This document shows positions 30,401-61,466 of a stretch of 64,000 nucleotides of DNA, piece after piece; within the stretch, counting starts at the first letter, position 1, and the number at the start of each line of letters is the position of its first letter. Origin of the DNA: Geosiphon pyriformis (Eukaryota > Glomeromycota > Glomeromycetes > Archaeosporales > Geosiphonaceae); NCBI GenBank assembly GCA_016748015.1, contig JAAOMT010000671.1:1-64000 (forward strand), written 5' to 3'. The translations under genes were made by a program, and so were the position numbers. The notes beneath the pieces are model-generated. The model was not told the origin of the DNA. It did not search any database and saw only the letters and a program-made list of their open reading frames with translations.

Positions 30401-32560
30401 ATAAAAAAAGTTAAAATATTTATAATTTTAAGATTTTATTAAATATTAAATTAATTGTATTAATTAAAACTGTCAAAAAAAAAAATTTAAAATTTTTCTA
30501 ATAAGATTTTTTTTGTTTATAGTAAATTTAATATGATTTATAATAACAATTTTTTTATTTTAAAAAATATTTCTATCTAATTTTCTATTTTTATAAAACT
30601 TATTAAAAAAATAAAAAATTGTAATTGGTTTTTTAAAACATGTATAAAACTTATAATTTATAAATAACTATAAAATACATGATAATCTAAATTAAAATAA
30701 AATTTTTTTATTATTATTTTGAAAATTTTTTTATTCTTTTTTGTATAAAATAAATAACATAAAAATTTATATAATTATAAAATTAATATTAAGTTAATTA
30801 TTAAAACTAATTTAATAACTAATATATTTATTAATAATACTATTTGGATTAAAAATAATTAAGTTATTATTCAATATATTTTGAATATTATAAGCAAATT
30901 TTTTTAAATTAATAATATATTTATTAATAATAATAATAAAATTGGGATTAAAAATATTTTCTTATTTATTAATAATTTGCTAATTTTTGTTGTAAAAAAA
31001 AATTTTATAAATATCTGAATATTTTTTATTTAAAAATAAATTTTTTAAGTTTAGTTTAATTAAGTTATATTTTAATATTAATTTTTTTGTAAATATAATT
31101 TTAAAAAAAAACAATTTTATATAAATAGTTTTTTAACAATTTTATAGTTTATTATTAGTTATAAATTATAGTTTAGTTTTATTTTAAAAAATATTTGTAT
31201 TAAGTAAAACACTTTAATTAAAACTTTTTAATTAAAACTTTGTATTATTTATTTTTGTATAACTTAAAATATTTTAGGCAAATTTAAGTTAAAAAAAAGT
31301 GATTTTAATAATAATTTTGTTAATACTAATAATATTTTTGGCAAATTATTTTAATATTAGTTTTTGAATTTACAAATTTTAAATTAAATATTCAAAAATT
31401 TGTTATATTATTCTGTATAAATTATTTTAAATAACAATATTTTTTTTACTACTAATTTTTTTATTATATTTTAGTTTATTGACAATATTTTAATGTTAAA
31501 TATTTTTAAAAATTTGGTTTATTATAAAATAATTTATTTGTTAAAAAATTTAAAATAGCATATATAAATTAATTATTAAACAAATATAATTAATGTTTTG
31601 ATTAAAAAAGTATTTTTTTATATTATATATTTAAGATAAATATAAATATTAATAAACAATAAAAATAAAATAAAATATTATTAAAGTATTATAAATTATT
31701 AAAAATATATTTTTAATGTATTTTTTTTAAATTAAAATAGTGTTAAAACAAATAGTATTAAACAAACTTTTTTTAGTTTTTTAATAATAAGTAAAAGTAT
31801 AAAATATTTTTTTGTATTATTTATATTATATATATATAAATATCAAAAATTTATGATAAAAAAATCTATAAAACTATGGTTTTAATAATACATAAAAAAA
31901 CAAAAATTGGTTGTAAATAACTACTTTAAAATATTATTAATTTTTGTTTAATTTTATTATTTTTATATATATTAAAAAAAATTATATAAAAAATATTTAC
32001 CAATAAAATTTTTAAGTATGTCAATATTTATTTTTTTTTTTTCAAATTATTTTCACAAATTTTTTTAATTTTAAAAGAATAATATTTTATTTATATAAAT
32101 TTAAAAATTTTTTTTGTATTATTTTTTTTATATTATATTATATTATTTTATTTTATTTTAACTTTTATATTAAATGTATTGTTTTTAATTTTTATTAAAA
32201 AAACATTTGCTTATAATATAAAAAATAAAATTTTTAAAAAAATTTATAAGATTTTTTTTGCAATAAATGCTTATTTAAAAGATTTCTACAATAATAAATA
32301 AATTAATAAAAGACAAAATTGCATTAAAACTTATTTATTTTAATTATTATTATTTTTAAAATTGATATTTATTGTTATATAAATATATTTTTTATAAATA
32401 TATATATAATAATACAAAGTTGTTAATAATTAATATTTAAAAAATAAATTAATAAAAATAAATGTTTAAAGCAAATAAAAAAATAAAAAAAGTGTTTTAT
32501 TGTAAATAAATTAACAAAAAAATTGCATAATATAAAGTGTGCTACAACAAAATCAAACAA
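30401..32560. other. AT-rich desert, no gene
   Basis: Roughly 2.1 kb of nearly pure A/T sequence with long homopolymers and no visible CG dinucleotides or open frames. It lies between the 5' end of LINE2 and element X. Confidence 0.6.
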
Positions 32561-32764
32561 AGTAAATATTTGACATTACTGGTCATCAAGATCAAATATT
32601 TATTTGCTCATACCTATTTTATCTTTTATTTTGGTATATTTGATACTAATAATTCTTTCCAGTATAATTAATTTTATAACAGCTTATTTATTTATAAAAG
32701 TTAATATGATGTGTCAAAAGAGGTGTTAAATTTTTCTTGATTCTAGTAACAGAAAAAGCAAATA

Positions 32765-36172: not shown

Positions 36173-36706
36173 TGTTGACCACTTTCATTAGCTATATAAG
36201 CAATAAGTCTCTTAGCTGTAGAAAATCATCTCTCAGACAAGAATCAAATAAATAAAAATAACAACTTTTATCTCAATCATTCTCTTATCGCTAATTTCCC
36301 TTTCCCTACCTTCAAGTATCCAAACATCTTAGGATAAAAGATTACTTGTTGGCCTTTTCCTGACATATATAATTGTAGCATTTGAAGATTATTTGAATAA
36401 ACGTGACTGAAAAGCACAAGTTGATACCTGATATTGAATTCTAAGAGCACCGACATGAGCCATAGAATTATACCAGTGGTGATCAATTATTGACAGTATG
36501 GACTATTTCTCTACCTTCAGATTTCTTTGTTACTTTTTGAAAAAAATAGCGACTGAAATATTTTATGAGACTGATCTTGCACATTAAATCCATACTCATT
36601 CAATTCGCTTATTGAAGTTGAATTCCTTTTGATTATTTCCATCACTCTACAATCCTGTTCTTTCTTGCTATCCGTTAGCTTGTTACTCCAACTCATAACA
36701 TAAAAG

Positions 36707-36724
36707 TGATGCTCCCTGTGAGGT
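36707..36724 (+). promoter_or_regulatory. Possible tRNA primer binding site of gypsy B
   Basis: TGATGCTCCCTGTGAGGT lies six bases after the 5' LTR and resembles TGGTGCTTTCTATAAGGT at the same place in gypsy A. If the first three bases were once TGG, they would pair with a tRNA CCA end. The specific tRNA is not assigned. Confidence 0.4.
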
Positions 36725-36734
36725 TGTCAAAATT

Positions 36735-38306: not shown

Positions 38307-39775
38307 GTGCACCTTCAAAGGATAAGAGTACAAGCCAACCAGAAAAAAATCCCTTTTATGCTTTTAACTTAACTGATGATAACCATAACATGAATGAATT
38401 AGCAATCAACCCTTCTGAATCCACAAAAAAGAAGAAGAAAGCCAAAGTTGATTTTGTTCTGGACCCCAATAAAGCTTCTACATCAACTGCTGACAACAAT
38501 GAACCCCCAAAAGCCAAAGTTTTCAAGAACTCTCCAAAGTTGAAACCTCTAGAAATAGTACAAAAATCCGGCCCCTATTCTGTTGTCAAAGACTTCATGG
38601 AAACCCCAGCACATATAACCTTTGGCCAATTGATGACCCATCCACAATTCAGAAAAAATCTTCACAAATCTCTAATTCCAAAGAAAAAGACACCCAAAAC
38701 CAACAAATGCTCTCGCCAAACTGGACTTGTTGACAATAGCAATGTCACTCCTCTAATTTGCAAAGCCCAAGTGGCTGGCTACTTCATCAATTTGATCCTA
38801 GACAATGGATCATCTGTTAGTGTTATTGCTAAACACTTTCTTGAAGCAATTGGCAGAAAAATTGATGAACCATCCACACAACCAATGACCAATGTGCATG
38901 GTGATAAAAAGAAAGGACTTGGCATAGCCAAAGCTATTCCTGTCCACATCAATGGCATCAGCATTAAAACTGATATGAAAGTATCTGAAGTGAAAGAATA
39001 CACCATCATTGTTGGCAATGAATGGCTCAAGAAAGCAAAAGCTTTGCTTGATTATGAACTCTGTGAACTAACCATCAGATGTGGTAAGAAACCCATTGTG
39101 GTTAAGTATTATCATTGGACAACTCCCCCAGTACCCAAGCAGAGCCCAAAAGAAAATGAATCAGACAAATCAGATGATGAAAAAAGTGAGGAAGAAGAAG
39201 AACAAGAAGAAACTGCTGAACTCGCCTATACCATCTTCACCAGCAATGGCAAACCACTGGATAATATCAAGGCAAATAAAGAAAGAATCATTGTCAATGG
39301 CAAGCTGATCTGCTGGCCTTATTATAACATGCTCAAAAGAATCTTTAACAGAAAGCCAGGCAAGAAAACCAAATACAGTTATTGGTGGCATGGTCCTTGT
39401 GCCTGGTACTGGTGCGACAAACCATTGTATTCTCCTAGTAATGAATGCATGTCCTGCCTGATCTATTACAAAGATTGGGAACCAATCAGCTTGATACCCC
39501 ATGAGGAAATAAAAGAAGTCCAAAAGTCCTTTGAAAACGAACCACCTGAAATCCAATCACTGGTTGTAGAACAAAGAGAACCCTCTTCAGAAGAAAGAAA
39601 GATAGACATTGAAAACCTGCTGGCTAGAAACAGCCCAGTTATCTCAAAAGAAGGTGAACCTTTTGAATGTACACATGTGATACAACACACCATCATTACC
39701 AAAGAAACTCACTCCATCTATTTGAAGCCCTATCAATCCAACCAGCACAATAATGAATTTATAAAAAGGAAATAA
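38300..39775 (+). pseudogene. Gypsy B protease and Cys/Trp-rich linker
   Basis: Open for 490 codons in the -1 frame relative to gag, without stops. A lysine-rich linker precedes the retropepsin motif LILDNGSSVSVIAKHF, whose catalytic triad DSG has become DNG. HVNGDKK-like and YTIIVGNEWLKKAKALLDYE sequences fit the rest of the protease. An acidic repeat (SDDEKSEEEEEQEE) follows, then CWPYYNMLKR and a block with WWHGPCAWYWC and CMSC that suggests metal binding. The frame ends at TAA 39,773, just before RT, where a one-base shift is needed. Confidence 0.85.
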
Positions 39776-40975
39776 CCTGAATGAAAAACCTTGGATTCAT
39801 ACAAAAAACCAAAAGTGAATGGGCATTCCCAGTTGTAGTGGTATCTAAGAAAGGAGAAACCTTATGCTTTTGTGTTGACTATCGCCAATTAAATGCCATT
39901 ACTGAAAGAGACATGTATCCACTTCTCAAGATTGATGCAATGCTAGACCAATTCCATGGTGCTGCTTTTTTCTCAATCATTGACTTAATTGCTGGATTCT
40001 GGCAAGTAGAGATGGATCCAGAAAGCAGAAAAAAAACTGCCTTTATCACCAAGTATGGCACCTATGAATTCACAGTTATGCCTTTTGGTCTCACAAATGC
40101 TCCTCTCACCTTTCAACACTTAATGGACAAAGTATTTGAATCAGTAAAAGAAAACTTTGTTCTAGTCTACTTGGACGACATAATGGTATACTCAAAAACC
40201 TGAGATGAATACCTTGAACATTTGCAAAAGGTTTTTGATCTCCTTAGAAATGTTGGCCTCAAGATCAATTCAATCAAATCATTCTTTGGATGTCAATCCA
40301 CTCAGTTCCTTGGCCATCTTATTACAAAAGATGGAATCTTCCTTGATCCAGCCAAAATTGAAAAAGGTTAAAACATTAGACAACCAATAAATGTTTATGA
40401 ACTATGCTCTTTTCTTGGTTTGGCCTCTTATTATCGCAAGTTTGTCAAAGATTTCTCCAAAATTGCCACTCCTTTCAATCAGCTACTTAGGAAAAACATC
40501 AATTATTACTGGGGCACTCATCAACAAAAAGCATTTGAAATTCTGAAGGAAAAACTGGTTACAGAACCCATCCTCATGCAACTTAATCTGGATTGACCTT
40601 TTATCCTCCATACTAATGCATCTGGCTATAGACTTGGTGCTGTTCTTTCTCAGAAAGACAAAGATGACAGGGAACATACCATAGCATATGCCAGTAGAAC
40701 TCTCACACCAGCAGAAAGGAACTATTTAGTCACTAAGTAAGAATGCTTAGCAGTAGTTTGGGCTACCAGCTACTGGGACAAATATCTTAAGGGTGTGAAA
40801 TTTTTGGTGGTAACAGATCACTAAGCTTTGGTTTGACTACACAACAAAAGAAACTTGGAACATAAACAGATAACTCACTGAATACTCCACTTGGATGAAT
40901 TTGACTATAACATTCAACACCGCAAAGGAGCTAATCATCAAAACACTGATGCTTTCTCCAGACTTACTATCTAGT
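39776..40975 (+). pseudogene. pol: Gypsy B reverse transcriptase and RNase H
   Basis: The frame at 39,781 reads the RT palm: SEWAFPVVVVSKKGETL, CVDYRQLNAITERDMYPL, FFSIIDLIAGFWQVEMDP and VMPFGLTNAPLTFQHLMD. The catalytic box VLVYLDDIMVYSK is intact. It continues past TGA at 40,201 (tryptophan position) through FLGHLITKDGI and FLGLASYYRKFVKDFSK. The RNase H segment ILHTNASGYRLGAVLSQ has Asp replaced by Asn. Further stops at 40,370, 40,597, 40,738, 40,822 and nearby disable it. It converts element RNA into cDNA in active relatives. Confidence 0.88.
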
Positions 40976-41036
40976 GATAGTAAAACCCTCCCAAACCAAA
41001 CCAACTTAATTATTTGTAACTCCTCTATAAACAAAC

Positions 41037-42296
41037 ATGATAATGAACTTGGACAACTACTCTGCCTTAATGGAATTTTTGTATAAAGGACAATACCTGC
41101 CGGATTATACTCGACAGCAAAGAGAACATTTGTGCAAACAATCAAATTTTTATTTGATTTGCCAAAACCAGTTATATAAAAGAAATAAAAAAAATCTTGA
41201 CTGCCCTCAGAGAGTCATTAGATTTGAAGAAAGAGAAATTGTGATCTACAATATGCACACTGATCCATTAGCTGGACACTTTGGAAAAACAAAAATGATT
41301 CAGAAAACTTTAGCTCACTATTATTGGCCTACCTTGGGAAAAGACATTGCTGAATACATCAAAACCTATGATATCTGCCAAAGAAGAGGAAAACCCAATC
41401 ACAAAAAAGATATCCATCCAATCTCTATTGGTCAACCCTTTAACAGAATTGGTATAGATGTTATTAGACCTTTAACAATAATTCCTGATGGCAACAGATA
41501 CATTATCACAGCTACCGACTATTTTACAAAGTGGGTAGAAGCAAGAGCCACTTCAGATCAAACAGCAGTCTCAATAGCCAATTTCATTTATGAAGATATC
41601 ATTTGTCATCATGGCTGCCCTAAAGAACTTTTATCTGACAGAGAAAAAGCTTTTTTCAGTACACTTGTTGAAGAACTTTGCAGAAAAATAGGAATATGTT
41701 ACAAACTTTTCTCTTCTTATCACTCCCAAACAAATGGCCTAGTGGAATGTTTTAATAAAACATTATATGAAACCTTAGCCAAAACCAGCAAAGAAACAAA
41801 CTTATAGGACAAAGTACTATCTTCAGCTTTGTTTGCTTATAGAACTGTGAATCATGACATAACAAGTTATGAATCCTTTTATCTACTCTATGGACGAATA
41901 GCAACCCTACCAATAGAAACTGACATTGAGACAATACCCTTTGAAAAAATAACAATAGGGAATTACAAAGACATTTTGCAAAAAAGATTTGGTATTATTC
42001 TTGACTCATTAGTAGAAGCATGGATAATTGCTTTTAAAAAGATAAAACAATTCCAAGAGAAGCTTAAGAAAAAGAAAACATATAAAACACTTTTCTTAAG
42101 TATTGGTGACTTAGTTTTAGAATACTGTTCAGACAGAGACAATGTCTATGGTGATAAATTCTCTAGCTGGTGGAAAGAACCCTTTATAGTCAACAAAGTT
42201 TTGAACAATGGTTCTTATATCTTACAAGATCAATATGGAACAATCTTCAATAATTGCCCTGTTCATGGTACACAACTCAAAAAATATCACAAATGA
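41037..42296 (+). pseudogene. Gypsy B integrase
   Basis: One frame, 420 codons, interrupted only by TAG at 41,805 (probably tryptophan). The HHCC region is present: NMHTDPLAGHFGKTK then YDICQRRG, where one cysteine is lost. The catalytic core shows IGIDVIRPL, LLSDREKAFF and NGLVECFNKTL, so the DDE residues remain. The C-terminus SWWKEPFIVNKVLNNGSYIL is the GPY/F-type domain. Integrase is nearly intact compared with that of gypsy A. Confidence 0.88.
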
Positions 42297-42397
42297 CCTG
42301 ATTGGTTACCTGTTGTAATAATACTGACCCAAATGATCAACAAAAATCAGATATAAATAAATGCACTATTCTCAAAACAGAGATATCTTCAATTAAT

Positions 42398-43054
42398 ATG
42401 AACAATTATTTTCTAGATCAAAACATTCAAAACACTTTCTACACTTTCCATAAGTACTGGATCAAAAATTATCCAAATGCTACTCTGATCATTGGAAAAC
42501 AAACCACCATAACTGATAACAGTGGAACACATACTGTTATTAGACCAAAAAAAACCACTACCAGAAGAGAAAAAATTGGTAGTAAAATAGATAAGTATTT
42601 GCTAGAAAGCATAACAGCAGCAATACTTATACCTTTCATAACAATTGGAAAAACGATTAAGGAAATCTTGCCCATAGACAAAAACTTGTCATATGGAAGG
42701 CAACTAGAACTCTATGGTCATCTTGGTGAAATCATAGAAGAAATGAAGTTCATGAAGAAAACAACTTCAGAGATACAAGTGGAAATTTTGGACATTATAC
42801 ATTTAAATGTCCTAAGAGTTTTGACCATTGCAAGAAGACCCAAAACTCTTATACAAAGATTTGGTCTCTTGGATACAAAGCTTATTTCGCCTCAAGTACT
42901 ATATACTCTATCCACAAAAAACTTCAACAAACTAGTTAGTTTTGAATTAGACAAAACCCTTCAATTAAAATACCCTATAAATAGCTTGATTTTACCAGAG
43001 CTTAATCTCTTTGGAGAGAATAATGTTATGGTTGAAACCCATAATTTTTATTAG
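42398..43054 (+). CDS. Gypsy B ORF3: intact extra ORF of unknown function
   Basis: An uninterrupted ORF of 218 codons from the first ATG. The open frame extends upstream to 42,302. It lies after integrase and ends ten codons inside the 3' LTR. The protein is lysine/isoleucine-rich, with a basic stretch RPKKTTTRREKIGSK (residues 49-63), a short hydrophobic patch ITAAILIPFITI (72-83) and predicted helices after it. There is no clear signal peptide and the patch is short for a membrane span, so an envelope role is not supported. I do not recognise a family. It has no stops, while gag and pol of the same copy have many. Confidence 0.6.
   Translation: MNNYFLDQNIQNTFYTFHKYWIKNYPNATLIIGKQTTITDNSGTHTVIRPKKTTTRREKIGSKIDKYLLESITAAILIPFITIGKTIKEILPIDKNLSYGRQLELYGHLGEIIEEMKFMKKTTSEIQVEILDIIHLNVLRVLTIARRPKTLIQRFGLLDTKLISPQVLYTLSTKNFNKLVSFELDKTLQLKYPINSLILPELNLFGENNVMVETHNFY
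43012..43023 (+). promoter_or_regulatory. Polypurine tract of gypsy B
   Basis: GGAGAGAATAA lies directly before the 3' LTR start TGTTATGG at 43,024. It parallels the purine run plus TAA before the 3' LTR of gypsy A. It overlaps the end of ORF3. Confidence 0.6.
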
Positions 43055-44708: not shown

Positions 44709-47682
44709 ATGCACTTGACAGCCGAATGCCTTCAGTCTCTCAAATGTCGCGGTAATAATAAATATTGCACTGGTTTTCTTACAGCATACTGTATTGACGT
44801 TTTCTAACATTGATTTTTGTGCAGCTTTTTGGGAGAGTACGGACACACCTTCACTTAAGAAATTCCTAGAATTTCGGTTCCTTGCTGGTGACTTGAAAGA
44901 CGAAGAAATAGAGCACTCTTACTAAACATGACCTGAACACTATCGGTAGGCACTACTCTGAAGCGTCTGAAGTCGGACAGAATGTACTAAAGTGGAAACA
45001 GCATTTCAAGGGGAGTGTAACTATTAATTTGGCAATATTAGCTACTTTGGAGCTGTCATGCAACCTGAGTACACTGACTACCCTGCTGGTACTGCTGGCA
45101 GTGGGAAAGGCCCGGTGCTTGTCGGTGAGAACCTGCTCAACGGATCCAAAGACCCAAGTGCTTGTCCGTGGTTGGCCTATATTCTAAGATACTCGCAGAG
45201 CGAGTCATCGTAGATTCTGTTGTAAATCAGATAAACTTATTATTCTTTTTCTTTTATAAGGACTCTAAGAACTCGAAGATCATAGAGTCTTTCTGGGAAA
45301 TACACGCAAAGAGAGAGAATGCTCTTATGAAAAGCAAGTTACGTGAAGAGAAGGTCAAGACGCGAATGCTGGTGGCAGAAACGGAGGCTATTGCTAAGGT
45401 TCGGGAACTGCAGGTAAATTAACTGCACATTCAATGCATCAAACAAATGCATTTATTTTTTATCTAATGTTTTATTGACTTTTTCATAGGCCGAGCAACG
45501 TTTAACAGTCAGAAGCGAAATGACTGAGCAAATGAAACTATATGCTGCGTCTGCCACAAAAATCACGAAGCTACTTTTAGATCAGAGCATTGGCACAGAG
45601 GGCACAGAGGTTGAAAATACTCCAGATTTTTTTCTCTTCTTTTTGTCTTCTGCGCGGCGAAGGAGCTTGTAGTTGGAATTGATGGCCATTTTTGAAAGTG
45701 TTCGTTTCTTTCATATCATCCGTAGGTGAAAACTCCCCCAAGTTCCCCAACCATCGCGATGCCCAGGGTCGGGAGGACCAGGTACATAAATACGAACGAG
45801 AACCTACCATCCGCGACGACTATACGAAGGCGAGTGAACGCAGATGGTAGCCATTATAATCTTGAATTTATATTCTCTAATACAGGCATTCGAAGTCAGG
45901 CGAGACTGATATCTGCAGTGAAGAAAGCGACAGTATCTCGGAACCAGATTATGAAAGCTTTACTCGAGCCTACAATGGCATGAAAAACGACAAGAAATGG
46001 GTGTTATCAACTGGGACTATTGTAGAAGATGCCCTTTATAATTTCGGTATAAAGTGCATGCACGAACAGTGGGTTATTTTCGTTCATAGTTTATTATGTT
46101 AGTATATTGGAATTTAATATATTGAAATCTCAAACTTATTGAAAGCCTTAGTCACTCTTTCGTTATCGACCCGGACGATGAAAATTATTTGAACGAGGGT
46201 ATTTTTACCCAACACGAACTCGAGGAAATTCGAGGTTTTCAGAAAAAGGTGCTTCCGCCAGTGCCCCAAGACCTATTACTGTATTTAGACAGTTTCCGCA
46301 CGGTATATATATATTTTTTATATAGTGCCATTATTTTTGTATGACTTTAAGTTTCTAGTTATCCTCTTTTGAATAGAGAACTACAGCCGACCTCAGACGA
46401 TTGGTTTTTCGGCAAGAAGCAATGGATCAAAACTTTGACCGACACGAAGACTTTGACCGCGACTGGATTCGGAATACAGTATACAATTTGTATGTAATAT
46501 TACTTTACAGCTATAATTTGTAACTGGAATTCTAACTTGTACCTAAATTTACAGATTAAGGGAATATGAAGCCGACAGCCTTACCAAGGAACACCTGGAG
46601 CTATGGCTATTGATACATGTCTGGAGCTTCATTGATAAGGCATTCGAAAATATTTCAGGAATAGAAGCCGTTAGGTAAAGAGATTATTTTTAAAAAAAAT
46701 TGCGCGATTAATTCCTCTCTAATTAAATTATACACATATCGCAGAGGAGAGTCGTGTTGTCTGGCGTCGTCTGCAAGAAAGAATGAAAAACGGACTGTGG
46801 CTGCATTAATCACCCTGAAAAGAAAGATGTTAGGTCGAAGAGGCGATCTAATTATTCGCAAAATATCTACGGAATACGGCTGTGCTGAGGCGGGAAAGCT
46901 CTTTCAAGGAGAGAAAGGCACAAAATTGCTGTGTGAGAAAGGATTAAAAACTCCAAAAATGTTGAAGGATATATTCAACAGTCTTTGCGCAGCCGTCGAC
47001 AGAGATGAACAGAAAGTTCGTAAATTGGAATCAATCGGATTCTTGCATGCAGGTGTGTTCTCTATGACGTTTTCCATTTAATCACAATCTGGGCTTTGTT
47101 TCTCAACATATTACTGTTTATTTTAGGACTCAAGATGTCGCTATTGAGACTTGATTCTCCTGCCGGATACACATGTCGTATTTCACGCTCAAAGTTACTT
47201 GAAATTCCTTCACAAGTTGCCGAATTCAGTTCGAAAGTGCTTCCTGTCATCTTGCTAGCTTGGAGAGCAAAGGTAGGCCGTAACATATTTAATATGACAG
47301 TAATCGTTAGCAACCTTCCTAACTGTATCGAAAATACTTGCAGACTATTGTCGCCGAAATGATCCGGTTGGTTGAGGAAGAAAACGAGCTTGACGAGAAG
47401 GATCGGTTGCAGCATTTGCTAGACTCATGTGAAACTTCATCGGCGTCGTCAAAGCGGGTGAAAGTGGATTTGCCATCAGCTCTAAATACACTTCAGAAGA
47501 GACGAAAGAAAATTTTATTAACAGGTATGCTTTTTCTTTTGGTTTTAAATTGTGGAACCAAATTAATTTGTGTTTCGGTTGCTAAATTAGGTCAATTGGG
47601 GCGACCTGTTCCGTTAAAACTGAAGGCAAGGGAAGTTAGTGGGTCGAATGAAGACGAGTCGGATGGCGATGACAGTGTCTGA
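44709..47682 (+). CDS. 13-exon gene of an unknown glomeromycotan protein family, frame breaks in exon 2
   Basis: Proposed exons: 44709-44751, 44825-45221, 45261-45413, 45490-45609, 45726-45846, 45900-46068, 46146-46302, 46377-46489, 46555-46674, 46745-47052, 47127-47272, 47344-47524, 47591-47682. All twelve introns are GT-AG and 39-116 bp long, and phases agree from exon 3 onward. The protein of about 700 residues has a coiled coil (exon 3), a Ser/acidic stretch, the conserved block KKWVLSTGTIVEDALYNFG then HSFVIDPDDENYLNEGIFT, and an acidic tail. I recognise the block from an expanded, functionally unknown family of these fungi. Exon 2 needs three frame changes between about 44,920 and 45,165, so this copy is a new pseudogene or has sequence errors. 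Confidence 0.72.
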
Positions 47683-48306
47683 ATTTCATTCTGCTCTTGA
47701 ATCAAGTAATACATTATAATGATGTACGGATATAGGGTCATCCCTATATAAAAATATAAATATTCACTTATGGAACCGAAGCATTTTGAAAAAAAAGAAC
47801 GGGGTGAAAAATAGCGCCATATGTTTTCATTCCTTTAGGAATATTTCTGTGTGTTAATGGTGAACGGCAAAAGATTTTGAGTGGTGTGGTGAAGACAACA
47901 ATGCTAGATACCCCTTTTCGATTAGCCAAACCGTGCGTTGGCCCAATGGAGCGCAGAGTGAACGACGACTATTGATTGGGTCAACCAAATTTGATAGGAT
48001 AGCAGCAGGTCTATAGGTAAAATGAATTGACGGTCAACATAAATGGAGCAATGGTGAAGTTGACAATATTGATGGTATCTTTGTAAACATATTGCTTGCT
48101 TTGAAATTCGATTATAATAAAAACACAGAATGCTTTGATGACTATTTCCTTTAATTTTTAGCATTTTTTTCCTGTGCGGTCAGGTCACTTTCTTTACTCT
48201 AGCTTCAGTCAGTTCATTTTGTGAAGGAAGGGACGGTTTTTTCGAATTCTTGAACTCATCCGAAACTCGTGAACTACACAGGATTATCCCTGTATAAAAT
48301 ATCAAC
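47683..48306. other. Intergenic region with a truncated duplicate of the next gene
   Basis: Near-normal base composition with several CGs. 47,731-47,850 resembles 48,281-48,450. It shares ATCCCTATATAAAA-type sequence, ATGGAACC, AGAAGCATTTTGAAA-type sequence, GCCATATGTTTTCA-type sequence and AGGAATATTT, with deletions. It is therefore a decayed partial copy of the start of the next ORF. I see no other gene; a minus-strand open frame at 47,922-48,164 has no supporting evidence. Confidence 0.5.
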
Positions 48307-48624
48307 ATGAAACTAATTTACATCAAATCCACTATGGAACCAAGAAATTATAGCACTATCAGAAGCATTTTGAAACAAGAGCAAGGCGAGAAAATTGCCC
48401 CATATGTTTTCAAAGTATCCGACACCAAAGCCATTCAGGAATATTTGGATAAAGAGAGAATTACCTATGAAATTTACCTACAATTATACGTCAATTCTAA
48501 TAGAAGCATAAATATCACTCATCAAGAAGATATTTCTGGACGAAGTCAGCAGGAATTAAATTCTAAGAAGCGAGAATTACATGAAACTTCCGAAGAATCG
48601 AGGAAAAAACGAAAATATAATTAG
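48307..48624 (+). CDS. Small hypothetical protein, 105 codons
   Basis: ATG at 48,307, or at 48,334 (the latter is the ATG kept in the upstream duplicate, MEPRNYSTIR or MEPKHF), to TAG 48,622. The N-terminal half contains KQEQGEKIAPYVFKVSDTKAIQEYLDKERIT. The C-terminal half is highly charged and ends RKKRKYN, which resembles a nuclear localisation signal. A TATA-like GTATAAAA lies about 15 bp before the first ATG. I do not recognise a family. The ORF is intact and may be an exon or 5' gene of the transposase-like remnant that follows. Confidence 0.45.
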   Translation: MKLIYIKSTMEPRNYSTIRSILKQEQGEKIAPYVFKVSDTKAIQEYLDKERITYEIYLQLYVNSNRSINITHQEDISGRSQQELNSKKRELHETSEESRKKRKYN

Positions 48625-48667: not shown

Positions 48668-49303
48668 ATGCTGTGTGGAAGAAATTTAACAAATTCAGAC
48701 AAACTGTGCATAAAAAATATATATATATATATGATGAATGACAAAAATTTAACTGAATACGAGAAAGCTCTCCATTTTTTGGAACTAGGCTGTGGTTGCG
48801 GTTGCTCGTCCAAGGTTCCCAAGGAAGAGTTTGCTGAATTGCGGGAAGCTTTTCAAGCACTTTCCAAGCCCGAACAAGACATCTTTTTAATGGCCCAGCT
48901 CAAGACCATGGATGGTGGATCCATAAACGTTAGTCGCCGTCTTAAGAAGAAAGCTCGCATTAATAAAAGGACTTTATACTGCTGAGGCCACAATACATCT
49001 CTTTGCCAGAAGACTTATTTGAATATGCTAGGAATTGGTCGTGCCCACTTCGAGAATGTACGAGATCTAGGTACTGTGAAAGCCCAAGAAGCTGCGAACG
49101 GTCCTTTCCAGGAATTCAAGTTATTGAAGACTAGCAAATCCCCAACTCCTCAAGCTATAAAATCTTTGTCATTTCCAGTGCTTAAGCCTCTTCCTATGGA
49201 ATTGAAACGCCAAGAGTACCTCTACCACAATATTCGCCCCTTTGTCCTGGATGAATTCAAAGATATTACTTGCCCAAGACCAACCTATAATGACAATGAA
49301 TAA
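48668..49303 (+). pseudogene. Internally deleted transposase-like gene
   Basis: One continuous frame of 212 codons, with plausible starts at 48,668, 48,731 or 48,734, and one internal TGA at 48,983 followed by GHNTSLCQKTYLNMLGIG. The N-terminal part has a Cys-rich CGCGCSSKVPKEEF and QDIFLMAQLKTMDGGSINVS. I recognise this from a large repetitive family in these fungi whose full members continue into a DDE-like domain. Here the sequence passes from HFENVRD directly to GTVKAQEAANGPFQEFK and PRPTYNDNE, which look like the C-terminus, so the core is missing. The TGA sits at a position that suits tryptophan. Confidence 0.55.
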
Positions 49304-49407: not shown

Positions 49408-50222
49408 ATGTTAAACATTTTAGAAGCACAACAACACGCAAACAAAGATTTACTAAATGAGATCGAAACACTGAAAAAGCAATTAGTCAATAAAGAAGTA
49501 AATCTTAAATGGGAAATTTGAAAGGTTGGTCGAGAAGAGTGAGGATATGGAGCAGAAGGATACAAATATTCTACTTTTAAAAATTTGGATGATAAATGAT
49601 TAGAGGAAGGTAAAGTCAGAATGGCAATCAACCCTAACGAAACCAGAGAATGAGCCAAAGGTTGTAAAAGAGTTTATTTCGATAGCATTACTGTTGAAGA
49701 GATGTTAGAAAGTTATTCTGATTTATCCAAAGAATTACACACAACACGGGCTGAATACATTTCAAGATGAAGTGAACGAGGTTATCAACTTACTAGACAA
49801 AAGAAAGAGTATGAAGAGAAAATAGCTAAGTTAGAAGAGTTTAATAAAAGTTTAGACAGAGACCGCCGAGATGCTTGGAAAGCCGAAGATACTCATGTTG
49901 AACTTGCCAATGATATTGTTAAAATGGCGAAAGAACAAAATGAAGCACAAATAAAAGGTTTGAAAACCAAGAAAATGAAATTCAGCAATTAAAGGAGGAA
50001 AAAGATGATGCTTTAAGATTATTAGCAAAAGCAAAGCAGATAATTCAAGAACAAGAAGCATTGCTTAATTTACATGAAAAACCTTTACCATCTTTACCTA
50101 AAAAGCAGAACAAGTTTAAATTACTAGGAACAAAAATAAAAAACAAGTTTTCACAATTAGCAGAAAAGGTTAAATCTCAAACTCGAGAAATGGTTGCCAG
50201 AATAGAAGTTAGAACTAAGTAG
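49408..50222 (+). pseudogene. Mollicutes-type coiled-coil gene read with TGA = Trp, one frameshift
   Basis: From ATG 49,408 the frame reads about 190 codons with five TGA codons (49,519, 49,540, 49,597, 49,651, 49,768) and no TAA or TAG. Reading TGA as Trp gives coherent sequence such as KVGREEWGYGAEGYKYSTF and NETREWAKGCKRVYFDSITV. TGG occurs twice. Near 49,957 a single-base loss shifts the frame. The +1 frame then continues FENQENEIQQLKEEKDDALR to TAG 50,220. The protein would be a long, charged coiled coil of about 270 residues with no recognised domain. Mycoplasma-like bacteria use this code, and the next gene follows after nine bases. Confidence 0.75.
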
Positions 50223-50231
50223 TTAGACAAT

Positions 50232-50867
50232 ATGAGAGAATTGCTTTATACGATTCTTGACTTAGATGAGTGAAGCAAAGATACGACTTGTGACTTTTGC
50301 CCCAACTTCAACAAAAGGAACAAAGCAGTTTGCCAAATTAGAACTCGTAATAAGGCAAGTCATAAAATAGTCGATAGTGCTTGTGCTTGTGGAGAATGTA
50401 AGGAGAAATTTGAGAATGATGAGATACTTAAATGTGAAAAATGTGGAGAATTAAAAACTAGAATGAGTTTTCATGATAACTGCCTTGAAAATGATGAAAA
50501 AGAATTGCCAATTTTACCTCATGAGGAAAGAGCTTCCACTAGATATGAACGACAAATAAACTCCTTGCAAGAGCAATTGAACGGAGCCGAATGAACCATC
50601 CAAGAAGAGCGAGAAGCCCACGAGGATTTTATGGAAAAATCTGAAGGGTGAAGCAAAAGACAGAAAGAGGAATTACTAGACAAAATTAAGTGACAAGAAT
50701 CAGAGATTGAACGTTTAAAAAAACTAACTCCTCAAGAACTGGTTAATGAAATAGAATCTTATAAGGAAGAAGTTACTCAATTAAAAACTCAGTTAGAAAA
50801 ATTGAATTCTCAACAGAATACTCAAATTGAGGTTAGAAAGTGACCCTGATTGAAAGTCAGGAAGTAA
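50232..50867 (+). CDS. Mollicutes-type zinc-ribbon/coiled-coil gene with six TGA = Trp codons
   Basis: A 211-residue frame from ATG 50,232 to TAA 50,865 is uninterrupted if TGA is read as Trp (50,271, 50,592, 50,649, 50,691, 50,841, 50,847). It has no TGG. The N-terminal third carries cysteine pairs CDFC, CACGEC and CEKCGE, a probable zinc ribbon. A coiled coil of E/K/Q-rich heptads reaches the C-terminus. CGA arginine and CAA/CAG glutamine codons are intact, so the TGAs are not the result of the C-to-T decay seen in nearby transposons. The nine-base gap to the preceding gene resembles a bacterial operon. No specific function can be assigned. Confidence 0.8.
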
Positions 50868-50969
50868 TTTGAGCAAAAACAAAAATCATCAAGCCTGATG
50901 CCTAAATGACGTCAAATGTTCACTTTGTCTGGTTTTGTTGCAGCACGCCCTATATGTATTTTAAAACTA

Positions 50970-53940: not shown

Positions 53941-54795
53941 TATTAACAAAATCTAAGTCATTAATTAGCATAAAATTATCTTTATAATTTTTATTATTAA
54001 TTAGCATATATTATTATTTTAATTTATTATTTATTATTTTATCAAATTATTTAAATTATTATTTAATTAATAATTTAATTTATACAAAACACAAATATAA
54101 CCAAATTGTAATAATTAAATTATGCAATATACTGAATTATATAACAGTTAAAAATTCACCAAAATATTTAAGAATTTAATAAAATATTTAACAATTTATT
54201 AAAATAATTTATAGTTTACAAAAATAGTTTATAGTTTGTTAAAATATATCTTTAATTTGTCAAAATATTAGAAAAAAAAGTGTTGAATTATAGAATAATA
54301 TTACAACAAATTGTATAAAGAAGAGCTTTTTTCTTTGTAAAAATGTATTTTTGTTTAAAATATTTTATTTTAAAATTAATAATTAGTTACTAAAAATTAT
54401 TTTAATAAAATTACTTTAAAAATTTAAAAATTCTTAATTATTACCACTTAAAATTATCTATTTAAAACTAATATTTAAAAATTGATTAATTATTAATTTT
54501 CATAATTTTTAGCAACTGCCAAGTCTAAATTTAAATAATTTCTTTAATATATTTATTTATTTATTTTTGGTTTATTTTTTTTATATTTTTTTATATTATT
54601 AAGTAGTCTACAATTAAAATTTTTTGTAAAAGAGTTGATTTTTATAACAAAGTAACTACATATTAATTAAAAAGCTTATAGATAAAATTTTTTGATAAAA
54701 AAGTTGATTTTTACTACAAAGTAACTATATTAATAATTGACATAAAATTGGTAATTTTATTATAACTCAATTATATATATAGTCTAAAGTATAAA
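53941..54795 (-). mobile_element. Old degraded copy of LTR family C
   Basis: The complement is colinear with the 979-bp LTR at 24,856-25,834. Matching landmarks are the terminal TGTTACCAAAT (TATTAACAAAAT here), TTAATTAGCATATATTAT, the ATTAATTAAAT region, the TTTTGGTGAA repeats and the duplicated GTAGTTACTTTG...ATCAACT units at 54,6xx-54,74x. Nearly all C and G in the younger copy are T and A here. The first roughly 120 bp of the LTR are missing where LINE4 begins. Confidence 0.75.
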
Positions 54796-54801
54796 AAAAC
54801 T
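54786..54801. repeat. Possible target-site duplication of LINE4 (5' copy)
   Basis: AAAGTATAAAAAAACT here resembles AAAGTATAGAAAAATACT after the poly(A) tail at 61,599-61,616. The AT-rich context makes coincidence possible. Confidence 0.4.
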
Positions 54802-54913
54802 TCTTTCTCTCTTATCTCCAAAAATTCTCAAAAAGTGCATTCTCTGTGAAAAGAAGTTTTTTTGTTTTTTAGTTTATATCAATATTTTTTTACCTAATAA
54901 TAACCCATTTTTC

Positions 54914-56788
54914 GTGAATATAGAGACTACTGCAAGTAGCTTCACATCTAAAAAGAAGACACCTAAGAGTGCTTTTTATGATTCTGCTGGTGGTTTATTT
55001 TTTCAGAAGAAGAAAGTTGTCATTGGTAATATCAAACACTCTGGTGATGAAAAGGATATATCTTTAAGTAAATTTGGACCTGATGACAATATATATTCTA
55101 ATGTGGATAATTTTTCTGGTAATGATAAGGACATTAACATGTCTGGTGTAAATAATAGGTCTCTTTTGGGCTCGGCTACAACTACACTCAAGGCAAAGTG
55201 GGTCAATACTAGTGCTGGTTTTGGTTCTCCACTCAGTTTTTCCAATTTTTATATGGATGATGATAAAGTTGTACTCCCTTCTCACTTGTCTATCTCTCTT
55301 GAAAAGAAGTGGATTGACTTAAAAGTCATCAAAACTTCTGTAAAAGTGCCAGTCAAAAAGTTATTTGCTTTGGATATCAATCTTTCAGCTGTAGAAAGGA
55401 AATCAGCAATGGCAAAAACTTAGTTAATCAGAAAAATTTTTTCTTTAGTCAATGGTTTTGGGAGGGCCACCACTTCTTCAAAATTTGGGAAGATCATCTG
55501 ATCTATGTTTATTTCTGAAGAGAGCATGATTAAAACTACATCATTGGCCAGTGAAAAAGAGATTAACATAAACTGTGATCTCAAGAAACAAGGAGTTTGT
55601 TCAGATCAGGCTGTAGTAATCAAAAAAATTCCCATGGACATGCCAAAGAAGATAATCATTGCCACAGTATTTGAGTTTGGTAATATTAAGTTGATCAAAA
55701 TTCAGCTGATTAAATTGTGGCAGAAGACAGTAGTGGAATTCGCTGAATTAGAACAGACAAAACAACTGGCATTAAGATGGTCATTTATTATTGGGAAAGA
55801 CTTGGTATGTGTGGCTATGGCTGTGGAAGATCAGGATACTTGGATGTCTAGGGATTGCTTTAGAGCACTTTTGTTTACTTTGCTGGTGGGAACAACTGCA
55901 CACAATCTTGGTACTCTTTTGAATGGGGCTGGTGGGAAAACTTGTATAATCAACCATTCTCTGGAGACTGGCAACTGGACTCACTGTGCTATTGTTGGTT
56001 TTGAATCTGAAAATAAGCTTGAATCTGCATTTTGCATTGAGCCAATTTTTGGTGACATGAGACTTTCTTGGGCCAGATTGGATTTGGTTCAGTGTAAAAA
56101 GTGTAGAAAATTCGGACACTTAGTTTTGAAATGTGATGCCTCTGACACTTTGGTGTCTGTCTCTTCTAAAAAAACAGTTAAAAAAAATGTTTCTGATGTA
56201 AATCGTCTTCAGTTGGCCAAGTTATATGCCAGAAAGAATGTTCCTATTTCTTGTCCTGCTGTTTTTGGTGGCAAGTCATGGGCTCAGGTGGTTTTTTCTG
56301 CAATTTCTTCTGGTGATTTTTGGTTTGAGTCTGGTTCTGGTTCTGGTTCTTTTTCTTCTAGTGCCTCAGGTTTGAGTAGTGGTTCTCTTTTGGTCCTGAG
56401 TAGTGATTTGTTATTGAACACTTGTTTGTCCTCTCTGGAATGTTCCTTAAAGTTCTTGGGTGATCAGGTTTCTGGTATTATACACAAACTCAGTGGTATG
56501 GAATTGGTGTCTTTGGCCCCCCCTTCTCCTTCTGGTCGTTTGGCTGCCTTAGTTAATGTCAATTTGGATTTAAACTCTGATATGGTTTTGAATAGTTCTG
56601 TTGTATTACCTGTGTCTCTTTCTGTTGTCTCAGCTTTGGGAATCAGTAGCTCAAAGATTTTGACAACTAAAGTGGGTTGCTTAGAGTCAAAGTTGGTGGC
56701 TCTTGAAGCCTCAATTAGTTCAGTTTTGGTAAAGTTAGATCAGTTGTGTGCTGGCTCAGGTTTTTGGATGTCTTCTGCTTCCCAATGA
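54914..56788 (+). pseudogene. LINE4 ORF1: RRM/zinc-knuckle protein
   Basis: 625 codons in one frame with only two stops, TAG 55,421 (after AMAKT) and TGA 55,502. These are at positions where glutamine and arginine fit. Domain order: Lys/Ser-rich N-terminus; KLFALDINLSAVE; an RRM-like fold around AVVIKKIPMDMPKK and IKIQLIKLWQKTVVEF; LLVGTTAHNLGTLL; knuckle CKKCRKFGHLVLKC at about 56,093-56,134; a Ser/Gly-rich stretch; and a C-terminal helix with SKILTTKVGCLESKLVALE. The protein should bind element RNA. The first codon seen is GTG, and no ATG is evident. The stop overlaps the ORF2 ATG. Confidence 0.88.
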
Positions 56789-59700
56789 GTAATTTGATTT
56801 GGAAATTCACTATGTGCAATGTTTGTGGCATTAATGTTCCAGCTAAACAAAAAGATGTCATATGGTGGTACATAAGTTCAGATAACATGGTTTCATTTAT
56901 TACTGAGACTAAACTAAGATCTAATATTAGGCCATAAATTATGAAAAAATTTGATAGAGTGCAAATATTTACTTCTGAGCTGGAAAAAAGTTTTTTAGAA
57001 ACTGGAGTGGCAGTTATTATGAATGAGTGTCTAGCTTGGCATGTGTCTAAAGTGGAGAAGGTTCCTGGGCAGATCATTTTAATTAAGCTTCTTTTCAAGA
57101 ACAAGATTTTGATATCTATTTTGGGTCTTTATGCTGATGTCTTCATTGAATCAAGATTCAGTCAAGCTTTGATTGTTAATTTCTTCATTGCCAAAGCTGT
57201 CAATTCCAGCACATTTGTGGTCTTGGGTGGAGACTTTAATAAAAATGGGAAAGAGAAAAGTGCAAGTTTCAAGTTTTGTTTTGATTTGGGTCTGGTGAAT
57301 TCATTTGTTGGACATAAGCTGGTTGAAGTTTCTACTTAGTCCAACTCAAGAGAGATCGAGAGAACTATTGATTTTATTTTTGTTAATTACAATTTGTTTT
57401 CTGCTGTTGCTGGCCATAAAATCAATTCTGTTGTGGAATTTTTTGACACTAATCATAAAGTGGTTTCGGTCTCAATTGGGTTGGGGGGTCTTGTGGATGC
57501 CAATTTAAATAATTTATGCAAGCAAGCCAACTGGGACAGATGAAAATTCAAGATTAAGAATGCCGACACTAGTAAATAGTTGCATTTTAGAGAGCACTTA
57601 TCTGACAGATTTGCTTTGGTTCTGCCTGAATTCACCCAGGCAAAAGATTATAGGAATTTGAATACAATGTGGAACATTCTGAGGGAGATTGTGATGGTGT
57701 TGGCTGATAAAATCTTTTCCAAACATTGGTTCAGTGATTTTGAGTGTACAAGGAACAAACATTCTCCCAAGTTTTTTAGGTTGGAACTTCTGGTGGCAAA
57801 AATTGTGAAAAGTTTAAGTAAGAGTTGCACAGCTGATTTTGCTTGCTTTTTATATACTTGGTCTGGTCTTGATAAGGCAGAAGCTTTTAGGATTGAGACT
57901 CTGATTAATGATAATATTGGGACTGAAATAGCTCTCCATCACCTGGCTGGTGTAAAGAAAAAATACTGCAAATCCAAATATTATGAATTCAGAATAGCTA
58001 GGAATAACTTCATTAGGAAAGCAATTAACAAATGTATGGAATTTTTTTGCTCTGATAAAGGGTGCATGATTCAGAGTGTGTTGGAATGGCCTGTTCAAAA
58101 AGTAATATTTGACTACTTGATAGTAGATGATAATTTGATTTTGGATCTTTGTGACATCAAATCAAACATTGATATGATTATGAAAGGATGGACGAGGAAA
58201 TACATGGTGCCCAATGTTCTGTCAGATTGCTGGTCGAATCAGTATGCCCTTTTGGCTCATGTTGATACTGGTGTATTTTTAGGTGTTATGTGTAGTTTCA
58301 GTCTAAATAAGTTGTTATTGGTGGTCAAGAATCTACTGGATGGCAAAGCAGCTGGGCTTTCTGGTATTACTAATGAATTATAGAAGCATTGTGATAGGAA
58401 AATTTTGGGTGGTCTGTTGAATATTTGTAATTTGTGCCTATATTTGATAATGGTTCTAGCACTATGGAAGGAAGTCTGGATCTCTATGATACCGAAGCCA
58501 TATGACTAAGAAGGAACCCTAACCAACACAAGACTTATTGCTTTAATTGAGACTGCTTGCAAGGTACTATCTAAGCTGCTTTCAGACAGGATCTTTTTGG
58601 CATGTAGTAAGTTTGATGTTTTTCGGGGTAATAACTTCTCAGTTTTGAGAGACATGTCTACTCTTTCTCTGATTTTTGCTGTCAGTTCAATAATTAAAGA
58701 TGTTCTGGAAAAGAGCAGAGAGGTGTGGTTGGTGCTACAGAACATGTGCAAAGCATATAACTCTGTTGAATGGCATCACTTGAAGAATTGTCTAACCAGA
58801 ATCAAAATGTGTTCTTATTTTGTTAGGTTTTTTGAGAATATTTACAATGGTCGAATAAATCATGTTATGACAGATTTTGGGTTCACATCTGAGTACATGG
58901 TACATGATGGACTTGACCAGAGTGAAGTTTTCTCTCCATTGCTGTAGAGAATTTTTTATGATTTTTTGCTTTGTAAGATTAAAAAGCTTGGTTATGTGTA
59001 TAGTTATAGAATGGAATCCAGGTTTTTTATGTACACTGGCAAACTAGATCTTAGAACTAGCAAGATGTTCTTTATGGCTGCTGAGGCTTTTGTGGATAAC
59101 ACAATCTGGATTGAGAACAGCATGGCTGCAACTCAGAGTATTTTGGATATTGTTAGTGAGTTTTTTTATATTAATAATATTTCCATAAACACAGACAAAA
59201 CAGCTGTTATACCAATCAACAGAAGGGTTGCCAATCTTCGGCTAGTAATTAGTAGATCAAATATCATAATAGTGAAAAAATATGGGGCTCATAGATACTT
59301 GGACATTTTTCTGTCAACTGAGGGTCTTTCTTGTCTTAGTATTGCTAAAGCACATTTGAACTTGAAGTTTTTTACGAACTTAGTTCTGAGAAAAATGGTT
59401 TTTAATAAACAATTCCTATATTTAGTTTTTGCTGTTTTGCAGTCTATTATTAGTTATAGGCTCCAATTTAGTCATGTTCCTACTAATGTGTGTAAAAGAT
59501 GAGACAAGTTGTTAAGAAAAAGTCTGAAACTTAAGGCTAATCTTCTCAAAGATTTAGGCCTTATATCACCCAGATTTATATAACTTGGTTCTCTTCAAGC
59601 AGCTCCTGGCCAAAAATTCACTGGCCAATTTTGTGTCTTTTGCTAATTCTGTGGGCATACTTGGCAACTTGTTTAAACACCATGTAATAGATCTACAGGT

Positions 59701-61466
59701 CATCAGTTAGATGCCCTGAAATCCTCTCAATTTTCCAATGACACTCTCAATCAGTCCTGTGGACTGTTTTTTTAGCTGGTGTGATGAACACACTTTTGTC
59801 ATATGGCCTGTCTTTGGGAAGTAGTGTGACAAACATGTTTTGTGCAGGCAGTAGTATTGTTGCTACAGATGTCCTTGGGCTAAATGCTTACATCAAGATC
59901 GTGAGTTTACTGAAAAAGTTTGAAATAATTTATGTAAACTAGCTTTTGGATCATCATGGCAGATGTTTCATGTGGAATTTATTTCGTAGATGGAAAAGGC
60001 TGGACCTTAGGAGACCAACTTTTGGTTGGTTTGTCTCTCTTGTGAACTTCATTGAATCTGGTAGTCTGGTTGGTAGTAGCATTTTGTTGCAGCTTTCTTC
60101 TTCAAAATTTTGCTCATATGATGATGGTTATGTCAAAGATTGTCTGGGACATGTGGGTTCTGATATTATACATGTTTACACCGATAGTTCAGTTAAAGAT
60201 CTTGGTTCTTCTGGTGCTTGTGGTGGTGCTGCTGTTTATTTCTCTAGTGTTAACATTGGTGTTGGTGTTAGGGTTCCCAATTTACTGTTTTTCACACTTG
60301 CAAAGATGTAACCCATTACTCTTGCCTTGAACTGTGTCTCCAATTATAGCTCAGTAGTATTGTTTACTAATAGTCAGACTTCACTGGACCTATGTGCAAT
60401 AGCCTTACAAAGCCACAGACCAGATTTCAGAAAAAAATGCTAGATAGAGTGTGAGTTTGTTCATGAAACTATTTTTTCAAAAAATCTGTCAGTTATCTGG
60501 AACAAAGTGAGAGACCACACTGGTGTTGTCGGCAACGAGTGCACTAATTTCTTTACCGAAGCTGCTACTGGTTCTAATTTCATTCTTCCTGTCAAGATGT
60601 CACTTCACTTCCTTAGCATAAAAGACAGACCCATTTTTGACAATGCTTATTATGTAGTCAGTAAACTTTATGATGCTGTTAATCTTGTTAGTTGAGAATC
60701 CAAGTACATGAGTGGTATAGTTGATAGAGCACTTAGCGGCCTGATAGACAAGTATTGCATTTTTGATGTATGGCATCCAAACGGTTATGTTAAATCTGGT
60801 TACACAGGTTCTGCTACTACAATACTCCATTTGTATTTTATGAAGGCCTTGCACTACTGGCTGCCTGTGGCCAAGAGGAAGAGGTTATATTATTCAGGTT
60901 ATCCTAGTGTGTTGTGCATTCTATGTGAACTTTTAAAAGATTTAGATCACTCGTTTGTCTGTGTTTCTAATGCTAACACCCATAATGACTTAATTTCAGA
61001 TGCCATCAAGGATTGAACAATTTTGTTGGACATGCATGCCACTTGTAACATGGTAGTTTGCTCACTTTATGAGGCTATGGGTTTGAATCGATTGTACATA
61101 ACTTTGTTCAAAGATTTTGTGTTGAAAGAATGGGTGAATAAGGCGAGGGGTTTGTTAGAAGGTAATTTGAATAGTGGATCTTTGGTCATTGATTTGGTTC
61201 ACCGTTTTTCTGAAAGTCATAGATCTGGTATATAGATGCCAAAGGCCAAACTAAAAGCCTATTATAAGAAGCATAATCTTTTGCTGTACAATAGATCTAT
61301 TATCCCACTAGTGTCTGGTTTGTCTTTGGTCTGGTCTTGTGACATGATTAATAGTTTTGGAATTAAGCTGAGTATACATACATGTTTTGGTCTTAATCCT
61401 CAATTACATAGTTTGCAGTTTGGTTTTCTATGTAATTTTTCTACATTGGGTGTTCTAGGTGTGTAG
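56785..61466 (+). pseudogene. LINE4 ORF2: endonuclease, RT, RNase H polyprotein
   Basis: It starts at ATG 56,785, overlapping the ORF1 TGA. The frame is kept to about 59,570, then shifts by one base to the end. Endonuclease: TETKLRSN, FVVLGGDFNKNG, TIDFIFVN. RT: GKAAGLSGITNEL, WISMIPKPYD, NTRLIALIETACKVLSKLLSDR. The catalytic box is AFVDNTIWI, in which the second aspartate is Asn. RNase H at 60,175-60,560: HVYTDSSVKDLGSS and RDHTGVVGNECTNFFTEAA. C-terminal Cys residues LCILCELLKDLDHSFVC may bind zinc. At least ten stops, largely TAG/TGA/TAA at Gln, Arg or Trp positions, make it inactive. Confidence 0.88.

Follow-up and report, generated by a model that had tools for sequence, protein, structure and literature searches.

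Wolbachia DNA is present in host nuclear genomes, where this endosymbiont DNA decays and survives mostly as fragments, and the T-DNA of Agrobacterium is DNA of a bacterial cell that enters a eukaryotic nucleus. Work by Naito in 2015 and by Torres-Cortes in 2015 is said to have reported that Mollicutes-related endobacteria and their host fungi exchange genes. According to the available part of PMC5982333, the bacterial genes of Rhizophagus irregularis have donors that are not known endobacteria. A transfer from the endobacterium into the fungal nucleus is not described in the available text of PMC11423566, PMC10507103, PMC5982333, PMC13315312, PMC10386755 and PMC12306442. Here, a TGA-coded transposase and its cargo in the DNA of Geosiphon pyriformis suggest that a mobile element crossed repeatedly from endobacteria to their host.

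The stretch of DNA analysed (the window, 64,000 nucleotides) is from contig C406 of the 124.7-Mb, 406-contig G. pyriformis assembly; throughout, C-numbers are contigs and P-numbers are protein records. Between 49408 and 50867 the window carries two genes that are coherent only if TGA is read as Trp (table-4 translation), with 11 TGA and 2 TGG codons in total. Gene 1 starts with the ATG at 49408; its first frame, up to 49992, holds 5 TGA and 2 TGG, and its TAG stop (50220-50222) is close to the end point of the homologues. The second frame of gene 1 has a twelfth TGA at 49941, which precedes the point where the two frames probably join. Gene 2, from the ATG at 50232 to the TAA at 50865-50867, contains 6 TGA, no TGG and no internal TAA or TAG under table 4. 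In support of this reading, four of the six gene 2 TGAs fall on columns with a Trp majority (p=1.9e-7, 119 homologues), as do four of the five in gene 1 (p=8e-6, from only 4 homologues). The remaining two gene 2 columns hold Glu 51 and Trp 23 in one case and Glu 41 and Gln 21 in the other (position 154), while the fifth column of gene 1 has Trp in 1/3. This coincidence with Trp columns is the strong part of the case, ahead of frame length, which is only suggestive: the longest run free of TAA and TAG (214 codons) was reached in 0/1000 dinucleotide shuffles, but 1000 shuffles with another seed gave a maximum of 241 codons. The earlier note was right in assigning TGA=Trp to two adjacent genes and in placing one frameshift in the pair, which we located in gene 1 at about 49944-49970.

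Both genes were taken as the cargo of a transposon. At E<=0.01, 143 relatives of gene 2 were found; 120 of them were listed, and those with an organism name belong to Geosiphon (P0007, P0120) and Scutellospora calospora (P0025). Gene 1 has 5 relatives, P0007 included. Neither gene had a match above the curated cut-off in Pfam or NCBIfam. Matches of the cargo genes in the PDB were weak and mostly to coiled coils, with no clear solved relative for gene 2. The Cys residues of gene 2 are invariant in an alignment of 25 sequences, and in its predicted structure (mean pLDDT 78, pTM 0.39) a small beta region that holds the conserved Cys is combined with two long helices. Note that GenBank already holds a gene model at this locus, G9A89_023978 (P0007), all 287 residues of which come from positions 49408-50591 of the window in seven pieces that avoid the TGAs. 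Since two of the seven pieces use a different frame from the bacterial reading, this model looks like a prediction artefact, and domestication of the genes by splicing around the TGAs was rejected on the same grounds.

Table 1. Features of the window, with coordinates, strand and the evidence for each.
Feature	Position	Strand	Evidence
Decayed terminal-repeat-like site, 8/33 mismatches, all C>T or G>A by eye	32535..32567	-	scan
Standard-code frames upstream, possible left cargo (candidate membership)	46665..47682	+	ORFs
Small element ORF, ~106 aa, 5' of transposase	48304..48624	+	similar ORFs in C309 and, inverted, C355
5' remnant of DUF7869 transposase, TGA 48983-48985 on Trp column 85	48749..49066	+	tblastn
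3' transposase remnant	49070..49303	+	tblastn: 74% to P0129 residues 510-589, at 49070-49300
Gene 1, coiled-coil-like protein, TGA=Trp, 1 frameshift at ~49944-49970	49408..50222	+	table-4 translation; homologues P0004, P0005, P0006, P0008
Gene 2, Cys-rich N-terminus + long coiled coil, TGA=Trp	50232..50867	+	table-4 translation, 143 homologues, alignment, model
Right terminal inverted repeat GTTCACTTTGTCTGGTTTTGTTGCAGCACGCCC (50918-50950) + terminal dinucleotide	50918..50952	+	genome scan, ends compared

Genes 1 and 2 are the 3' cargo of a multi-copy DNA transposon with terminal inverted repeats and a DUF7869 transposase. A DNA search of the assembly returned nine further partial copies of the window genes. 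The C294 copy adjoins a transposase frame with a DUF7869 match (PF25273, E 2e-16), a domain which, in view of the terminal repeats, we take to be that of a transposase; our literature search returned no mention of DUF7869. The order transposase, gene 1, gene 2, whole or partial, is found on C294, C309, C355, C366 and C220. On C341 and at one of the C358 sites, a piece of gene 1 accompanies a decayed transposase; C333 showed gene 2 only, and the other C358 site had no protein match. On C150, genes 1 and 2 are replaced by another TGA-containing gene (3 TGA, 6 TGG), and C280 has an apparently broken relative of this other gene. This alternative cargo gene, located at 355-1332 of locus L019 (C150) and downstream of the transposase in L020 (C280), has an IICDWDECL-type motif; a HAD-like identity, seen by eye only, was dropped, as Pfam gave no match above the cut-off. 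On C404, part of which reads N, the terminal repeat is about 340 bases from the transposase.

The 33-bp terminal repeat occurs with up to 3 mismatches at 64 genomic sites, 32 on each strand, against 0 in the control. Among these, eight opposed pairs share a contig with less than 10 kb between the two repeats (0.4-8.6 kb), three of the eight being only 0.4-0.54 kb apart; seven pairs were read and the C370 pair was left out. A 2-bp A/T duplication stands outside TG...CA in 6/7 of the pairs read, the seventh (C298) having a changed terminal base; the element ends were set after inspection, and 2 bp match easily. Nine of 30 repeat loci match the transposase, gene 1 or gene 2 (L019, L020, L022, L023, L027, L028, L038, L042 and, weakly, L036), L039 has a match at E 2e-5 with stops, two more match the small ORF only, and the rest had no match within 1.5 kb. 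The C330 element carries repeats and had no transposase match. Since gene order and terminal repeat recur at other loci, we rejected the single, lone bacterial fragment of the earlier note: the window holds one copy of a transposon family with a TGA-coded transposase, whose copies sit on separate branches.

The window copy keeps just the two ends of its transposase gene, with about 400 codons missing between the remnants; the 5' remnant is 77% identical to P0128 residues 1-106 and 86% to P0129 residues 8-112 (tblastn). The stretch of the small ORF has nucleotide matches on C309, C355, C366 and C280, and no Pfam match at E 0.1. The terminal dinucleotide is TA here and CA in seven paired elements, and a scan of the window did not find a left repeat. 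Two of the upstream standard-code frames were tested and had no Pfam match above the cut-off. The decayed repeat-like site on the minus strand is probably another, older copy of the transposon family. Elsewhere in the window, retroelement frames occupy 36699-43054, with aspartyl protease and reverse transcriptase matches at 38276-40200, and a second group of long frames lies at 54788-61016, two of which were tested and gave no Pfam match.

The transposase, like the cargo, is TGA-coded and shaped by purifying selection. The five Trp columns of P0129 read TGA,TGA,TGG,TGA,TGG in C294, C309 and C355; TGA,TGG,TGA,gap,TGA in C280; TGA,-,-,TGA,TGA in C404; and TGG,TGA,TGA,TAA,TGG in C341. TGA and TGG are thus exchanged at Trp columns between copies. 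The five copies free of TAA and TAG (C280, C294, C309, C355 and C404) contain 16 TGAs in 2678 aligned codons, 15 of them on Trp columns, for which a pooled p-value overstates independence because the copies share ancestry; the sixteenth is in C294, beyond its frameshift. Short aligned parts on C150 (116 codons, 0 TGA) and in the window (182 codons, 1 TGA) also contain no TAA or TAG, which does not mean that a copy is intact, since those of C294, C280 and the window have frameshifts or deletions. The decayed copies carry TAA or TAG in numbers of 22 (C220), 18 (C358a), 6 (C341) and 2 (C366).

Under table 4, dN/dS of the transposase was 0.07-0.11 in all six pairs of C280, C294, C309 and C355, with dS of 0.58-2.12 and three pairs near saturation; therefore, these copies diverged under selection where TGA means Trp. 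The other 30 pairs, which involve decayed or partial copies, gave 0.07-0.74, one being undefined. For gene 2, dN/dS was 0.09-0.47 in the 10 pairs among C294, C309, C355, C366 and the window, and 0.23-0.95 in the other 11, with C220 or C333; for the C-terminus of gene 1 it was 0.16-0.74 (8 defined of 10 pairs). The GC content of genes 1 and 2 is 31-36%. The five transposase copies free of TAA and TAG have 36-42% (GC3 0.30-0.41), which resembles fungal-type frames more than endobacteria, and the four decayed ones have at most 33%; endobacterial assemblies have 29-33% in the available part of PMC11423566.

Relatives of the transposase were found well beyond Geosiphon. Those with names include proteins of Rhizophagus irregularis (P0162), a sponge (P0164) and a moth (P0170), and related gene models exist in Ambispora, Gigaspora, Diversispora and others. 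One record from a 'Candidatus Moeniiplasma' MAG, P0153, seen as protein only, is 57% identical over 51% of the transposase query. At Trp column 312, 15 of 25 glomeromycotan-labelled proteins have a gap, 2 have Trp, 1 has Leu and 7 do not extend that far; in 8/15 of the gapped proteins at least 5 of the 12 flanking positions are present. Of nine further close relatives, eight have Trp and one Ser, the Moeniiplasma protein has Trp, and the other 7 of the 42, which are distant, have Phe, His or Tyr or are unaligned. The gaps are consistent with gene models of Ambispora, Gigaspora, Diversispora and Geosiphon that bypass a TGA, a reading taken from protein records, with the DNA seen for Geosiphon only. 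In the Ambispora record P0138 the transposase model continues into a gene 1-like stretch (57 aa, 40%, E 2e-5 against 7 sequences).

The donor proposed by the earlier note was a Mollicutes-related endobacterium, and this claim stood in part. TGA=Trp and the relationship of P0153 to the transposase speak for it; against it, no Mollicute was among the named relatives of gene 1 (5) or of gene 2 (120/143 listed), nor was one found in GTDB. Scans of GTDB and IMG/VR with gene 2 and with the transposase returned no relatives, and no relative was found in plasmids; these blanks are weak because the search patterns may write Trp only as TGG.

In the transposase tree (40 rows with 200 or more columns each; root, five sequences taken as eukaryotic), the Rhizophagus protein branches first and the Geosiphon transposases form two supported groups (0.92, 0.96), intermixed with other fungal and further sequences. 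P0153, labelled Candidatus Moeniiplasma glomeromycotorum, groups with Racocetra and Ambispora proteins (0.94) beside the TGA group, with a joint node at 0.99. The gene 2 tree (125 rows, C333 left out) pairs C309 with P0121 (0.98), C294 with P0033 (0.97) and the window with P0009 and P0011 (0.78). C309, C294, the window and the C366/C220 pair sit in separate supported clades and C355 was not placed; the row nearest to the gene 2 of the window is nevertheless C294. With C280 or C404 as the reference, C>T plus G>A changes far outnumber the reverse ones in the decayed copies (C280 to C358a, 299 against 26), whose GC content falls to 0.11. In comparisons of C294, C309 and C280 with C355, substitutions were balanced or leaned the opposite way. 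Thus, divergence under selection came first and nuclear decay later. The loci L015 (C358), L010 (C220) and L017 (C341) hold old copies with strong AT-directed decay in this genome.

Standard-code frames lie between the left repeat and the transposase in all four complete transposase-bearing elements examined (C280, C294, C309 and C355), and are the main feature that a plain bacterial transposon does not explain. The left side of C280 is a standard-code kinase gene with several exons (P0148, a GenBank model, with Pfam support for the kinase), with TGG at 11/11 Trp on the kinase side, a count that is partly circular because a GenBank model cannot hold TGA. The model, G9A89_008622 (C280:7857-10815, L052), fuses this left-cargo gene to the transposase, and it ends at the TGA of transposase Trp column 212. 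The exon structure is known for the C280 element alone, from that model; the left sides of C294, C309 and C355 are 3.8-5.1 kb with open standard-code frames. Two of these three show weak similarity to each other (E 0.006-0.03), and the left cargos may bear a likeness to Crinkler-type effector genes. A doubtful but far-reaching reading of this arrangement is a bilingual shuttle transposon, whose left half (introns, TGG) could be expressed only by the fungus and whose transposase and cargo (TGA) only by the endobacterium. Such an element would move between the endobacterial chromosome and the fungal nucleus, carrying genes either way, and transposase made by the bacterium may mobilise the nuclear copies. 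If this is true, fungus and endobacterium would have in it a permanent means of exchanging genes.

The loci show TGA coding, purifying selection, a recurring element structure with repeats, separate branches and graded decay. The probable explanation, in our judgement, is that a transposon resident in Mollicutes-related endobacteria has inserted into the fungal nuclear genome on several occasions; we infer from the pattern the endobacterium as the TGA-reading host, the direction from bacterium to nucleus, and integration by the transposase. Transposase and cargo would have evolved in a TGA=Trp lineage, most likely 'Candidatus Moeniiplasma'-type endobacteria of arbuscular mycorrhizal fungi, before element DNA entered the nucleus and integrated there several times. 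Nuclear copies would lose selection because their TGA-coded genes are not fully translatable in the nucleus, and would then collect frameshifts and deletions while C>T/G>A changes raise their AT content.

Another possibility could be that the TGA=Trp donor was not a Mollicute but some other symbiont or a eukaryote with this code, or else the mitochondrion of the fungus. Among the matches listed, only one relative of the transposase has a bacterial label and no relative of the cargo does, and the transposase GC is above that of known endobacteria. However, that one relative, P0153, groups with the transposase family under a Candidatus Moeniiplasma label, and the mitochondrial genomes of these fungi are not known to hold DDE transposases; we regard such a donor as unlikely. 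The element could also be native to the fungal nucleus, with its TGAs read there as Trp through readthrough or an unusual tRNA, and with TGA as a brake on the transposase. The standard-code frames of the four complete elements, the 0.4-0.54 kb repeat-flanked elements in the nucleus and the gene models of Ambispora, Gigaspora, Diversispora and others would agree with this. Up to six TGAs in one cargo gene, the TGG of the C280 kinase side (the partly circular count above) and the free decay of old copies argue against it, as does a search of the window and of 14 element loci, which found no tRNA gene and also led us to reject an element-borne suppressor tRNA. We hold a nuclear origin to be quite improbable.

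Passive nuclear capture of endobacterial DNA, in the manner of nuclear mitochondrial copies and with the transposase as one captured gene, would account for TGA-coded genes and for decayed and truncated copies, but hardly for several loci with an identical gene order ending at an identical terminal repeat, or for the repeat at both ends of the seven elements read; it is already disfavoured and very improbable. An assembly chimera or contaminating bacterial contigs have still less to recommend them and are likewise already disfavoured. Endobacterial contigs are known to contaminate assemblies of these fungi, according to the available parts of PMC11423566 and PMC10507103. Against this, separate contigs carry related copies (among others C294, 696 kb; C355, 2.09 Mb; and C366, 2.06 Mb), one element has an HMG-box frame about 2.9 kb beyond it, the window has a retroelement with reverse transcriptase, and the copies show graded AT decay; we find this origin barely credible. 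The HMG-box frame (PF00505, E 1e-19) is at 8630-9901 of L009 (C294), on the minus strand, past the right end of the C294 element. The chimera offered in the earlier note as an alternative was therefore not borne out, and its fungal nuclear setting with integration was: the related copies have flanks, repeats and a stage of decay of their own, and the separate contigs that carry them reach 2.09 Mb.

A transposon written in another code than the genome that holds it would be a natural tracer, in which TGA marks the partner that selected the gene. The element provides a testable vehicle for the known gene exchange between the partners, and the decay of its copies is a way to order the landings. 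It is also a warning for annotation: the GenBank model of the window locus steps round the TGAs, and models in other mycorrhizal fungi have a gap where further relatives have Trp.

As in Wolbachia inserts, the copies described here would be endosymbiont DNA decaying in a host nucleus; unlike those inserts, which are mostly fragments, they are discrete elements with terminal repeats and in a different code. As with Agrobacterium T-DNA, a bacterial cell is proposed as the source of the DNA, but here no transfer genes were recognised in the sequence examined and integration would be the work of the transposase. The DUF7869 (PF25273) proteins of eukaryotes have this domain in common with the transposase of the element (E 2e-16), which differs, with its cargo, in using TGA=Trp, the relatives being compared as proteins only. 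The gene exchange between endobacterium and fungus in PMC10507103 involves the same two partners; the transfers reported in its available text run from fungus to bacterium, whereas here transposon DNA in a bacterial code lies in the fungal nucleus.
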